36,868 bases of DNA, taken from positions 1-36,868 of the forward strand of contig JAJFGD010000155.1 in the NCBI GenBank assembly GCA_021776315.1, in the 5' to 3' direction. This stretch comes from Hyphococcus sp. (GTDB lineage: Bacteria; Pseudomonadota; Alphaproteobacteria; Caulobacterales; Parvularculaceae). The notes below the pieces were generated by a model. It did no database searches. It worked only from the letters and a program-made list of their open reading frames with translations, and was not told where the DNA came from. Both the position numbers and the translations under genes were made by a program. This document shows positions 16,396 through 25,546 of the stretch, piece by piece. Numbering within the stretch: the stretch's first letter is position 1; each line of letters starts with the position of its first letter.

Positions 16396-17352
16396 GTGGC
16401 GGTTTACACCAATGTTTCTGACCCATCATTGCGCGCCTTTTTGCGCAACTACGCGATTGGTGCGCTCGTGCGCAAAACGCCAATCGCTGAAGGCGTGGAA
16501 AATACTAACTACCAAATAGAGACAGACACAGGACAATATATCCTGACGCTGTTCGAAAAACGCACACGCGAAGAAGATCTGCCATTTTTTATGGCCTTTA
16601 CCGACCAACTGGCACGACAGGGGCTACCCGTGCCCGCGCCGATCAAAAGCAGAGATGGCGAAATCATAAAGCGACTTTCCGATCGGCCTGCGGTCATTGT
16701 CGAGTTCCTAAACGGGCGTCCGCGCATGGTGCCATCTGCGAATGATTGCAAAGAATTGGGGCAGGTTTTAGCGACGCTCCATAACAAGGCTGGTGGTTTT
16801 GATATTAATCGCAAAAACCCCCTCTCTCTGCCTGGGTGGCTTAGCCTCGCCAAAACTTGTGGCGACGAAGCGGATCGGTGCGCGCCAGGTCTTGCCGCCG
16901 CTATCCGTGATGAATGCAAATTTCTTTCTGACCATTGGCCAGTCGATCTGCCCAGCGGGATCGTTCACAGCGATCTCTTTCCAGACAATGTGTTGTTTGA
17001 AGACGACAAAATTTCCGGCGTCATCGACTTCTATTTTTCATGCACCGACTTTTTTGCTTATGATTTGGCAATATGCATCAATGCCTGGTGCTTTAGAAAT
17101 GAACAGCTACAAAAAGGCCATGCACAAGATTTGTTGCAACAATATCAATTGGTGCGCGCCCTTAGCGCTGCAGAAATTGCCGCCCTGCCTGTCCTGCTTC
17201 GCGGTGCCGCACTACGATTTTTACTCACACGTCTTTTTGACTGGTTGAATCAGGTAGAAGGTGCTCTCGTGAAGGTCAAAGACCCGCTCGAATATTATCA
17301 ACTACTGCAATTCCACCAGAACCAATCCACCCCCTCACTATACGGACTTTAA
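16396..17352 (+). CDS. thrB: Homoserine kinase, ThrB2 (APH-fold) type
   Basis: 318 residues. This is the aminoglycoside-phosphotransferase-fold homoserine kinase typical of alphaproteobacteria and Pseudomonas, not the GHMP-fold enzyme of E. coli. EGVENTNYQI near residue 32 forms the nucleotide loop, HSDLFPDNVLF at 191-201 is the Brenner-type catalytic loop, and VIDFYFSC near 209 has the metal-binding Asp. It phosphorylates homoserine to feed ThrC, whose gene in this window carries a nonsense codon. The start is GTG 16396, five bases after ispH; an alternative ATG is not near. It abuts rnhA. Confidence 0.95.
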   Translation: MAVYTNVSDPSLRAFLRNYAIGALVRKTPIAEGVENTNYQIETDTGQYILTLFEKRTREEDLPFFMAFTDQLARQGLPVPAPIKSRDGEIIKRLSDRPAVIVEFLNGRPRMVPSANDCKELGQVLATLHNKAGGFDINRKNPLSLPGWLSLAKTCGDEADRCAPGLAAAIRDECKFLSDHWPVDLPSGIVHSDLFPDNVLFEDDKISGVIDFYFSCTDFFAYDLAICINAWCFRNEQLQKGHAQDLLQQYQLVRALSAAEIAALPVLLRGAALRFLLTRLFDWLNQVEGALVKVKDPLEYYQLLQFHQNQSTPSLYGL

Positions 17353-21438: not shown

Positions 21439-22038
21439 TTAACTTAAATTTCGACACCGATACGCTCGTGCTGTAATCGCAAAAAGATCATGATTCCGCC
21501 AGGCACCATTGATCTTCAAATAGTCTTGCGCATGACCTTCTAGCGCAAAACCACAGCCGGCGAGCAAGTGCTGGGATGCTGAATTCTCAGATTGGCACGC
21601 TGCCTCCACCCGATTGAGATTTAACCCATCAAAAGCATGGCCCAACAGTGCCTCGACCAATGCCTTACCCATTCCTTGGCGCGTGAAAGGCGCGCCTATC
21701 CAGTATCCAAGCGATCCTGCTCGGGCAGCGCCATAGCGGATATTGGTGAGGCTGAGACCACCGACCAGCGCATCATCTTCATTGCGAAAACAAAATAATG
21801 AAAGACCACTGGCCCGCCGCGCATCCCGCTCAAAATGGCGTAAACGTTGGCGAAAAGACGATAAAGTCAGATTTTCTGCAGTCCAGTCCTGCTCCCACCG
21901 CGTTAGATGGGCCTGACTGTCCTCTCTCAGAGACCGCCATGAATCGTAGTCGCTCAGCTGTGGTGACCGTAAATAAACGGGATCCCGCACCAAAATCGGG
22001 TCGAATGCAGACCGGTTCCTGGATTTGAGCAAAAACAT
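21439..22038 (-). CDS. GNAT N-acetyltransferase, RimJ/RimL type
   Basis: 199 residues. The N-terminal part (VYLRSPQLSDYDSWRSLR) and the acetyl-CoA loop GYWIGAPFTRQGMGKAL, followed by LNLNRVEAACQSEN and NSASQHLLAGCGFALEG, match the RimJ/RimL group that acetylates protein N-termini, classically those of ribosomal proteins. The exact substrate cannot be told from sequence. The gene lies on the same strand between the M16 peptidase and the EAL gene, an order I know from other alphaproteobacteria, but here cspA and a small gene are inserted on the opposite strand. Confidence 0.88.
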   Translation of the reverse strand: MFLLKSRNRSAFDPILVRDPVYLRSPQLSDYDSWRSLREDSQAHLTRWEQDWTAENLTLSSFRQRLRHFERDARRASGLSLFCFRNEDDALVGGLSLTNIRYGAARAGSLGYWIGAPFTRQGMGKALVEALLGHAFDGLNLNRVEAACQSENSASQHLLAGCGFALEGHAQDYLKINGAWRNHDLFAITARAYRCRNLS

Positions 22039-22112
22039 GGGCTTTTACGACTTTAGGGAAAGACCTGACGATCTTCACCAAAAATGGCCTGAAATGTCAA
22101 AAAGAGAGCCCA

Positions 22113-22146
22113 GTGCAATTTGGCGATTTAATCGCCAGAATTGCAC
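22113..22146. other. Strong orphan hairpin between the GNAT and cspA genes
   Basis: GTGCAATT then TGGCGAT (22113-22127) pairs with ATCGCCA (22131-22137) and AATTGCAC (22139-22146). That is a 15-bp stem with a 3-base loop and one bulged G at 22138. It is the most stable small stem I found in the window. It begins 75 bases from the GNAT start and 225 bases before cspA, so it cannot be the terminator of either. TTGACA (complement of 22095-22100) next to it could be a -35 box for the GNAT gene. Confidence 0.6.
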
Positions 22147-22181
22147 AAACTACCGAAAAAACTAGGAAAATTGGCACCGTA

Positions 22182-22340
22182 CCCCGCCGCAAAGCAGGGG
22201 AAAACCTTGCAATTTGTAGGTGTAAGGTCCATATGCCCATTGCACCAATGATTTAGAGCCGTCCAATAGGCCTCTGTTACAAGCTTACGAACCTCCAAGA
22301 CATCGGTTGCTTTTTATACGGGTAAGGCCATGCCTCACCC
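22182..22340 (+). promoter_or_regulatory. Structured leader region upstream of cspA
   Basis: Three further hairpins lie in series before cspA: CCCCGC/GCAGGGG at 22182-22200, GGTGTAA/TTGCACC at 22219-22246, and GGGTAAGGC/GCCTCACCC at 22320-22340. The last is only 19 bases before the ribosome-binding site. Long, temperature-sensitive leaders are known for cspA in E. coli, and this could be an analogue; that is inference. No open frame with coding character lies in the 332-base gap. Confidence 0.45.
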
Positions 22341-22370
22341 GTCAACGCCATGTCTTAAAAGGAGATCTCA

Positions 22371-22571
22371 ATGGCTACTGGAAAAGTGAAATGGTACAAT
22401 CCGCAAAAAGGCTTCGGCTTTATTGAGCCTTCAGCCGGCGGTAAGGACGTTTTTGTCCATGCCACAGCACTTGAAGCCGCGGGCATCCGCAGCCTCGATG
22501 ATGGTCAGGAAGTAAATTACGAACTGACTGAAGAGCGCGGTAAAGTTTCTGCGACTTCCCTGAAAGTCTAA
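22371..22571 (+). CDS. cspA: Cold-shock domain protein, CspA family
   Basis: 66 residues, a single cold-shock OB fold that binds single-stranded RNA and DNA. RNP1 is KGFGFI (residues 14-19) and RNP2 is DVFVHATAL. AAGGAG at 22359-22364 gives an excellent ribosome-binding site. It is followed by a strong hairpin and then a small basic protein. Several csp copies are usual in such genomes, so the symbol marks the family and not a proven orthologue. Confidence 0.95.
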   Translation: MATGKVKWYNPQKGFGFIEPSAGGKDVFVHATALEAAGIRSLDDGQEVNYELTEERGKVSATSLKV

Positions 22572-22590
22572 ATCAGACCCAGGATTAATT

Positions 22591-22618
22591 TTGCGGCGTG
22601 CGACAACGCACGCCGCAA
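22591..22618. terminator. Hairpin downstream of cspA
   Basis: A perfect 12-bp stem, TTGCGGCGTGCG (22591-22602) and CGCACGCCGCAA (22607-22618), with loop ACAA lies 20 bases after the cspA stop. Only a short TT follows, so it may act as a partial terminator or as a 3' stabiliser on a cspA-plus-downstream transcript. Confidence 0.7.
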
Positions 22619-22670
22619 TTCGGGTCGATCTTGTGATCTACCGCAATGCAACAATTCGAACCGGAGGTAA

Positions 22671-22871
22671 ATGATGACGTCATTAAGCAACAGCCAGCTC
22701 AAAGCACCGGCCGCAACCTCCCCCGCTAATCGTCGGGAAGAGCGCGAGCGTGCCGAAGCCGAAGCGCTGGCTCAAATCGCATCAACGCTACGCGAACGCC
22801 AAAACAAATCTCGCAAACTTCGCGAATTGCGCCTCGCGCAGTCCGCAAAGAAGTCTGCCAAAAAAAAATAA
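22671..22871 (+). CDS. Small basic protein of unknown function downstream of cspA
   Basis: 66 residues, rich in Arg, Lys, Glu and Ala. The middle (RREERERAEAEALAQ) is strongly helical, perhaps a short coiled coil, and the C-terminus is a Lys-rich tail (SAKKSAKKK). The tandem ATGs at 22671 and 22674 have GGAGG at 22663-22667 just before, so it is almost certainly translated. No Cys and no known motif are present. Nearness to cspA hints at a nucleic-acid or ribosome-linked role, but this is a guess. It could share the cspA transcript if the hairpin between them is leaky. Confidence 0.75.
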   Translation: MMTSLSNSQLKAPAATSPANRREERERAEAEALAQIASTLRERQNKSRKLRELRLAQSAKKSAKKK

Positions 22872-22900
22872 GCGCCGAGATGTCGCGAAAGCGACGCGCT
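22871..22900. terminator. GNRA-type hairpin between the small basic protein and M16 genes
   Basis: GTCGC-GAAA-GCGAC (22882-22895) is a perfect stem with a GAAA tetraloop, extended by AGCGC (22871-22875) with GCGCT (22896-22900) across a 6-base bulge. AAAATTT follows on the plus strand. It lies between convergent stops at 22871 and 22906, so it likely terminates one or both. Confidence 0.65.
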
Positions 22901-22905
22901 AAAAT

Positions 22906-24150
22906 TTAGCTAAACACATTCGCGACTCGGTCAGGTTCACCTGCGCCGACGATCGCTATGGAAAATGCGCCATCAAGGGCTCTGACGGCACAGCGTTTAA
23001 TATCCTCAATGGTTACCGCATTGAGGCGTGCCACCAATGCATCGGGCGACACAATTTCGCCAAAGGTGAAAAGTTGACCGGCATTCGCCTCGATGCGCGC
23101 GGCCGGCCCTTCCATACCCATCATCAAAGATGCGCGTAACAAGGCGCGCGTGCGATCTATTTCTATTTGCGTCACGGATGTTGCCATGGCCTCAATTTCT
23201 TGGCGGATCAATTTTGCCGCATCGACGGTTTGGCTTTCTTCTGCACCAAGATAAGCACCAACGAGCCCACACTCCTCATAGCCATCGGCAAATGCGTAGA
23301 CGGAATAGGCAAGTCCGCGTTCCTCCCGGATGGTCTGAAACAGTCGTGACGACATCCCACCGCCTAACGCATCAGCAAAAATACGGGTCGCAAAAAAATC
23401 ATCTGCACCCGATGCAACGCCCGGTAGTGCAATGGCTAAATGAGTTTGTTCAATATCGCGGGCATCATGCTCTACACCGCCAACAAAGCTAGGCGTTGAT
23501 CGGACGTTCGCACCCTCTCCCTCCGGCATATCATCAAACTGCGCTTTGACATGGGCGATCACCTGATCTGTCTCTACCTTCCCCGACACGGCGACGATCA
23601 TGGCCTCAGGTCGATAGTGGCGTTCCATAAACCCCCTTAAACTGTCAGGTGTTTGAGCGCGCACACTCCCAGGCGTCCCTAAAATCGGTCGTGCCAGCGG
23701 ATGGCCTTCCCAGGTTGCCGACTGCAATAACTCAAACACGACATCATCCGGTGTATCAGCAGCTTCGCCTATCTCCTGTACGACAACTTCTTTTTCTTTA
23801 GTGAGCTCATCGTCTCCGAAAGCCGGTTGGCGCAAAATGTCGCCAAGCATGTCAAACGCCAAAGGAACGTCATCTTTCAATACGCGGGCATAATATCCGG
23901 TACGTTGATGGCTAGTTGCCGCATTCAAATACCCACCGACAGATTCAATCTCCTCAGCGATCTGTCGCGCGCTACGACGCGCCGTTCCTTTAAATGCCAT
24001 ATGTTCAAGGAGATGGGCGATGCCATGTTCTTCGTTACGTTCATCCATAGAACCCGCATGAGCCCAAATGCCCAATGCTGCGGTTTCCAATGCTGGCATC
24101 GGATCAACCACAATGCGCAGTCCATTTTTGAGTTTTACAATATCAACCAT
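22906..24150 (-). CDS. M16 family zinc peptidase (processing-peptidase-like)
   Basis: 414 residues. The inverted zinc motif HLLEH is at residues 46-50 (IAHLLEHMAFKGT), and QEIGEAADTPDD carries the downstream Glu ligand; the GGGMSSRLFQTIREERGLAYSV stretch (short form GGGMSSRL) is the conserved C-terminal half. This is the catalytic subunit type related to mitochondrial processing peptidase. ATG 24150 was chosen because GGAG lies just before it; ATG 24165 is the alternative. Both lie inside the 3' end of thrC, whose TGA is at 24143-24145, so the two genes overlap and are probably coupled. That coupling matters because translation of thrC stops early here. Confidence 0.94.
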   Translation of the reverse strand: MVDIVKLKNGLRIVVDPMPALETAALGIWAHAGSMDERNEEHGIAHLLEHMAFKGTARRSARQIAEEIESVGGYLNAATSHQRTGYYARVLKDDVPLAFDMLGDILRQPAFGDDELTKEKEVVVQEIGEAADTPDDVVFELLQSATWEGHPLARPILGTPGSVRAQTPDSLRGFMERHYRPEAMIVAVSGKVETDQVIAHVKAQFDDMPEGEGANVRSTPSFVGGVEHDARDIEQTHLAIALPGVASGADDFFATRIFADALGGGMSSRLFQTIREERGLAYSVYAFADGYEECGLVGAYLGAEESQTVDAAKLIRQEIEAMATSVTQIEIDRTRALLRASLMMGMEGPAARIEANAGQLFTFGEIVSPDALVARLNAVTIEDIKRCAVRALDGAFSIAIVGAGEPDRVANVFS

Positions 24151-25546
24151 TGTAGTCTCCGCCATGACGTTCGCGCATGATTGACTTGATCGCCCTCGCA
24201 TCTGCTTTTGCATTCAACAAAAATTCAGGCCGCTCGAACAGGTTTGAATACCGGTTGGGCAAGCTTGGGTATCTCCCCGTGGCTTGTTCGACGGCATCAG
24301 GGAATTTTGCCGGATGCGCTGTCGACAATGTAATCACTTTACCAGTCAACGCCCCTTTCGATCGCAGTCGTCGCGCAGCAACCCGCGCCACCGCTGTGTG
24401 CGGATCAATCAAAGCGTTTTGCTCGTCAAAGTGTTGCTAAATTTCCGTAGCAGTTTGATCTTCGCTCGCGGCATAAGATTGAAAAGTCTCACCTATGCGG
24501 TCGCGTTCAGCAACGCTCAGGGTCATCGCTCCCTCACGTTGAAACGTCGACATCCGATCAATAAGTTCCTCATGGTCGCGATCCATGACTTCAAACAGGA
24601 GGCGTTCAAAGTTGCTCGCAACTTGGATGTCCATGGATGGTGAAGAGGTTTTGGCAACGCCTGATGGTTTGTAATCACCATGCTGAATGGCGCGGTGTAA
24701 AATATCATTACTATTCGTCGCCACGACGAGTTTTGATATTGGCAACCCTATTCGTTTGGCAGCATAACCGGCAAAAACATCCCCGAAATTCCCAGTTGGT
24801 ACAACAAAGCTAACCGGTCCGCCGACCGATGCTGTTGCCGTGAAATAGTAAACCATTTGCGCCGCAAGGCGGGCCCAGTTGATCGAATTGACCCCGCTCA
24901 ATTGCATTTCATCGACAAATACTGCGTCCGCAAAAAGTGATTTCACAATCGCCTGACAGTCGTCAAAGGATCCATCAACTGCAATATTGGTGACTTGCCC
25001 ACTTTCGACACAAGTCATGATCCGCCGCTGAACTTCGCTGACCCTGCCTTGCGGGTGCAGCACAACTACATTGACGCGCTTGCAATGCTTAAGGGCTTCA
25101 ATTGCCGCGGCCCCGGTATCACCAGAAGTTGCAACAACGATGGTGATGCGTTGGTTTCGACGCTCAAGCACATCGTCAAAGAGACGCCCAAGAATTTGCA
25201 TCGCAAAATCTTTGAACGCCAGTGTCGGCCCGTGATAAAGCTCAAGAATCCAATCCTCTTCGCCGACCTGAGTCAGTGGCGCAACATCGCCATGGTCGAA
25301 AGCACCGTATACGCCGCGTGCCATCTCAAGTAATTTTTCTCGGGAAAACGCCTCACCTGTAAACAGCGCCATGATAGTGGCAGCAACGTCAGCATATGCC
25401 TGGTCACGCATAGCCGTTAAATCATTTGCTGATAGCTGCGGCCAGGAAGTCGGCATAAAAAGTCCACCATCCCCGGCGAGCCCTTTTAGCAATACATCTT
25501 CGAAATTGGCGGAACCGGCAGCACCCCGGGTGGAAACATATTTCAT
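24143..25546 (-). pseudogene. thrC: Threonine synthase with an in-frame amber codon
   Basis: ThrC converts phosphohomoserine to threonine with PLP. The start MKYVSTRGAAG is canonical, the PLP lysine is in PTLAFKDFAMQ, and TSGDTGAAAIEALK is the phosphate-binding stretch. After codon 369 (ATEI) there is a TAG at 24437-24439. The same frame then goes on without a gap as QHFDEQNALIDPHTAVA, a standard ThrC sequence, up to a TGA at 24143-24145. The full frame is 468 codons, the usual length of the long ThrC type. There is no frameshift. So either one nonsense mutation has removed the last 97 residues, or the base is a sequence error, or the codon is read through. Confidence 0.93.

Follow-up and report, generated by a model that had tools for sequence, protein, structure and literature searches.

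An in-frame TAG codon in thrC of a Hyphococcus genome: a probable recent nonsense mutation or base error

In the assembly studied here, the threonine synthase gene thrC of Hyphococcus sp. carries a single in-frame TAG (amber) codon, with coding sequence that looks intact on both sides. The analysis concerned a window of 36,868 nucleotides, that is, the whole stretch of DNA under study, which is contig C63 of a Parvularculaceae genome (3,316,332 bases, 275 contigs, 95.05% complete, 3.42% contaminated). Judged by its fragmentation, this genome appears to be a metagenome assembly. The TAG is probably a nonsense codon of recent origin, or else a base error, and not a new decoding system. The explanation that we favor, and to which we give an even chance, is a recent nonsense mutation in thrC, tolerated through a redundant or already broken pathway.

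Read on the minus strand, thrC begins with the ATG at 25546 and stays open for 369 codons until the TAG (24437..25546, the TAG itself lying at 24437..24439). ThrC-like sequence then continues in the same frame, with no gap, for 97 codons from 24436 to 24146 and ends at a natural TGA (24143-24145; part after the stop, 24143..24436), as the initial annotation had described it. A frameshift instead of a substitution was ruled out, since the reading frame is unchanged. The part before the stop matched PF14821 (Thr_synth_N; 86.7 bits, cut-off 25, profile positions 1-76 of 79), PF00291 (PALP; 70.5 bits, cut-off 35, positions 23-240 of 295), and the thrC model TIGR00260 (227 bits, cut-off 167). The part after the stop, taken alone, matched the end of TIGR00260 and the THR4_C domain (PF24857, E 9.9e-11), a match that is confined to the post-TAG part and absent from the pre-stop open frame. 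In the domain and relative searches, the thrC open frame was given as 374 residues and the PALP match in that frame as 472. Both parts aligned with the solved threonine synthase 4f4f, the first covering residues 6-375 and the second residues 385-456.

Downstream of thrC lies an M16 peptidase gene (22906..24213, minus strand). With a start at 24150, this gene would overlap the TGA of thrC, in agreement with the overlap first proposed for the two genes, and lower translation of the M16 gene through this coupled start is a possible consequence. The window also contains an intact homoserine kinase gene, thrB (16396..17352, plus strand; NF003558, 369 bits, cut-off 271), for the step preceding ThrC. 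As a side observation, the ~870 bases running from an acetyltransferase gene to the M16 gene (22038-22906) hold no listed ORF of 120 codons.

The first 369 residues, used as a query, found matches in 34 of the 39 relative genomes: 21 of the 23 from the same genus, the exceptions being G015 (86% complete) and G019 (83% complete), and 13 of the 16 others from the order, the exceptions being G025, G029, and G031 (all 100% complete). Since the nearest thrC was only 69% identical to that of the window, the event cannot be dated by a very close relative. We aligned 100 relative loci (90 distinct), namely, 29 of the 35 matches in relatives and 71 further loci. All 100 carried a sense codon at the stop site, none having TAG, and no stop was found anywhere within the alignment. 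This comparison of the codon in relatives had been suggested in the initial annotation, which also expected the residue to be variable. Ten different residues occupied the site (A 36, R 21, K 21, T 11, Q 3, G 2, S 2, N 2, I 1, and L 1).

We then compared protein divergence after and before the stop, a test which, at ~35% divergence, is blind to recent decay. The ratio was 1.04 between the window thrC and 20 genus loci and 1.05 between genus loci, with the partial G001 locus left out and single loci spanning 0.85 to 1.26. Of the 125 columns with 95% conservation or more across the 100 loci, the window thrC kept 123, including 17 of 17 after the stop, where they comprise the run TAHPAKFP. This retained conservation, with no long decay seen, argues for a stop that is recent on the scale of species divergence, erroneous, or read through.

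Stop codons elsewhere in the genome were surveyed in a sample of 902,120 bases (27%), made up of the window and 82 further contigs or parts of contigs, which was compared with 1,386 ORFs taken from 165 loci of relatives. From 173 matches, the 119 best-scoring non-overlapping ones were kept (at least 35% identity, ~33,800 aligned codons), and 11 of these 119 contained a stop. Once the other ten were set aside, thrC alone remained with an internal stop that was not close to a contig end. In two of the ten, the frame breaks at a TAA within 80 bases of the end of a contig (L198, contig C10, position 76; L207, contig C19, position 3303). In L215 and L232, the stop coincides with the natural gene end or lies close to it, and one match in the window has two stops (26747 and 26753) that both precede the likely start. 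Five stop-bearing matches (two in L218, one each in L225, L233, and L269) face a longer opposite-strand frame, in the reference and in their own genome, and were discarded as false frames, so at least five of the 119 matches were false. A split alignment at window 24013-24416 (plus-strand matches 24013-24186 and 24267-24416) was read as antisense to thrC and the M16 gene, and in a broader listing, most internal stops fell in false antisense ORFs of the reference. The L198 and L207 frames are 86-87% identical to G004, and their breaks are possibly assembly-end faults.

These data bear on how the TAG is decoded. Genome-wide recoding of TAG has nothing in its favor besides this one codon. TAG ends 10 of the 30 other window ORFs taken as genes and 29 of 105 matched frames in the 27% of the genome sampled (TAA 46, TGA 30), and RF1 (prfA) is intact (505 bits, cut-off 423). 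On terminal stop use and RF1, we rejected recoding, whose probability we take to be negligible; the initial annotation had likewise noted TAG as an ordinary stop nearby and judged recoding improbable. Another proposal is that an amino acid is inserted at the TAG frequently enough for full-length ThrC to be made. It would fit with the lack of decay after the stop and with a tRNA set so incomplete that a suppressor could be missed. No CUA anticodon occurred among the 34 tRNAs read, a 35th match being cut at a contig end, and tRNAs for Asp, His, Ile, Phe, and Trp were not found among the 35 tRNA matches of the assembly. In an assembly devoid of such ordinary essential tRNAs, a missing CUA tRNA proves little. 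Yet, false antisense frames apart, no other internal TAG occurred in the 119 matches, the terminal use of TAG and the intact RF1 speak for release, no relative locus has a stop at the site, and a known read-through context does not occur in the window. We therefore regard read-through as unlikely, and the amber suppressor first envisaged found no support. A more elaborate version, in which a real TAG would be usefully read by a suppressor or near-cognate tRNA encoded in the unassembled part, setting the ThrC level while selection preserves the post-stop part, seems to us somewhat less credible again.

The stop could also be a new gene end, the 369-residue protein being still active or differently used. 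In favor of this, nearly all of Thr_synth_N and positions 23-240 of the PALP profile precede the stop. Against it, the lost part holds the 17 highly conserved columns mentioned above, TAHPAKFP included, and five of five solved relatives of this type match the lost part, one of them weakly (8g1y, E 0.0025). We consider an active or differently used short protein very improbable. The main rival of a nonsense mutation is an assembly or consensus error, in which a wrong base gives TAG where the cell itself carries a sense codon; we hold it to be a serious possibility, albeit a less probable one. The genome is split into 275 contigs with 3.42% contamination, conservation over the rest of the gene matches that seen in relatives, as expected of a wrong base, and thrB is intact. 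Assembly faults are common at contig ends, and the L198 and L207 frames break less than 80 bases from one. However, the TAG lies deep inside a 36.9 kb contig, and among the 119 matches (~33,800 codons) there was no other internal stop off contig ends, so the assembly is not generally poor.

A possibility raised at the outset was that the genome has a second thrC. The THR4-type N-terminal domain had one match in the whole assembly, the window thrC itself. The PALP domain had nine, one being the window thrC, and we scanned the other eight proteins. One of them is encoded by an intact threonine-synthase-like gene on contig C39 (L140, 1288-2496), which matched NF006050 over its full length (655 bits, cut-off 303). 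The remaining proteins resemble enzymes of the cysteine synthase or cystathionine beta-synthase types, an ammonia-lyase, a diaminopropionate ammonia-lyase, and a tryptophan synthase beta chain, some of these family assignments falling below cut-offs. The sampled part of G004 (800,000 bases, 23%) has a copy with 80% identity to the C39 protein, and a close NF006050 copy was seen only there and in the window genome. G004 also carries an uninterrupted thrC, which is 63% identical to that of the window. The best solved relatives of the C39 protein are the threonine synthases 6cgq, 2zsj, 2d1f, and 1uim. From these similarities, the C39 protein is a putative second threonine synthase, its name being a family label, and the second thrC proposed initially thus has a candidate.

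The initial annotation had also offered threonine auxotrophy as an outcome. This is possible, as a profile search of the window genome found no homoserine dehydrogenase (PF00742) in the assembly, an absence that may itself be an assembly gap. All 14 control genomes had PF00742, as did 21 of the 23 genus relatives and 6 of another 9 relatives from the order. The three order relatives devoid of it are 99-100% complete, so that such an absence has precedents among complete genomes of the order. A genus homoserine dehydrogenase protein used as a query gave no match in the window genome, G006, or G007, in a search without its own positive control. In the three loci read (G010, G012, and G004), the gene order was metB-like, homoserine dehydrogenase, proB, with proA next in G010; the names metB-like, proB, and trxB-like are putative and rest on Pfam matches.

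The locus in G007 (L292, contig C15, 1267-2535) lacks the dehydrogenase gene between metB-like and proB when compared with that of G010 (L286, contig C25, 104-2094). A stretch of ~1.03 kb in G010 is unmatched there, while the flanks are 86-87% identical and ~70 bases are unaligned at the junction. The last codons of the G007 metB-like frame resemble the end of the G010 dehydrogenase, and proB follows. This points to loss of homoserine dehydrogenase in G007 by a deletion of ~1.03 kb. In the window genome, the neighbor after the metB-like gene is a thioredoxin-reductase-like gene in convergent orientation (L202, contig C14, 99-2359). The assembly gave no match for proB and one for proA, at 19.5 bits, far under the cut-off. 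The metB-like/dehydrogenase/proB order is thus broken there, the dehydrogenase, proB, and proA genes being either lost or located in unassembled DNA. G006 has no dehydrogenase, no proA, and a weak proB match; this genome is 84% complete, and its absences may be an assembly gap.

If the nonsense mutation is taken as the explanation, a normal THR4-type thrC would recently have gained the codon, in the strain as a whole or in a subset of its population. Translation would end at the TAG, with RF1 releasing a 369-residue protein devoid of the C-terminal domain and probably inactive. The loss of ThrC might be tolerated because a second threonine-synthase-like enzyme is present, or because the homoserine branch was already broken and threonine is taken up. 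Several sequence observations are consistent with this scenario: intact coding on both sides of the TAG, a sense codon in 100 of 100 loci, an intact RF1, common terminal use of TAG (29 of 105 frames) with no CUA anticodon among the 34 tRNAs read, no sign of long decay, an intact NF006050 enzyme, no dehydrogenase found in the assembly, and the ~1.03 kb deletion in G007. On the other side, the TAG comes from a single assembly and its base may be wrong, and an intact thrB is not what a dead threonine branch would lead one to expect. The missing dehydrogenase may be a gap, as proB, proA, and five tRNA isotypes are missing too. Finally, G007 lost its dehydrogenase and yet retains an uninterrupted thrC.

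In the portions of the literature consulted, thrC was a neighbor of the genes under study in one report, with a slightly shorter thrC frame in one clade (PMC9251427). Another warns that what looks like a gap in an amino acid pathway is often a gap in knowledge; Desulfovibrio vulgaris, a predicted threonine auxotroph, appears to have an unrecognized homoserine kinase (PMC5764234). A third reports that predicted auxotrophies were commoner in metagenome and single-cell genomes than in isolates, an excess that its authors attribute to genome reduction and not to incompleteness (PMC10665431). The passages of these last two papers contain nothing on the Hyphococcus sp. organism. Searches of the literature for an in-frame stop codon together with metagenome-assembled and threonine, and for a second threonine synthase, found none.

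As a single codon, the thrC TAG matters little. If the TAG and the missing dehydrogenase are both real, related bacteria of this genus would stand at different steps on the way to losing threonine and methionine synthesis, and such a stepwise loss would have a second threonine-synthase-like enzyme in the background. This possible stepwise loss of the homoserine branch is a more interesting lead than the TAG itself.

Young pseudogenes of amino acid synthesis that bear nonsense codons are a known kind in bacteria. The window thrC resembles them in having a single in-frame stop in an otherwise intact gene, and in that the assembly search missed a further pathway step as well. It differs in that the stop is known from one assembly only, of one strain. 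Compared with the THR4-type threonine synthase (PF14821, PF00291, and PF24857; 4f4f), both parts of the window thrC are alike in domain order and sequence, whereas the protein is interrupted after residue 369. NF006050 (PRK08197) is named for the reaction of ThrC and has an intact member on C39 of the same genome, whose closest solved threonine synthases (6cgq, 2zsj, 2d1f, and 1uim) differ from those of the window thrC.
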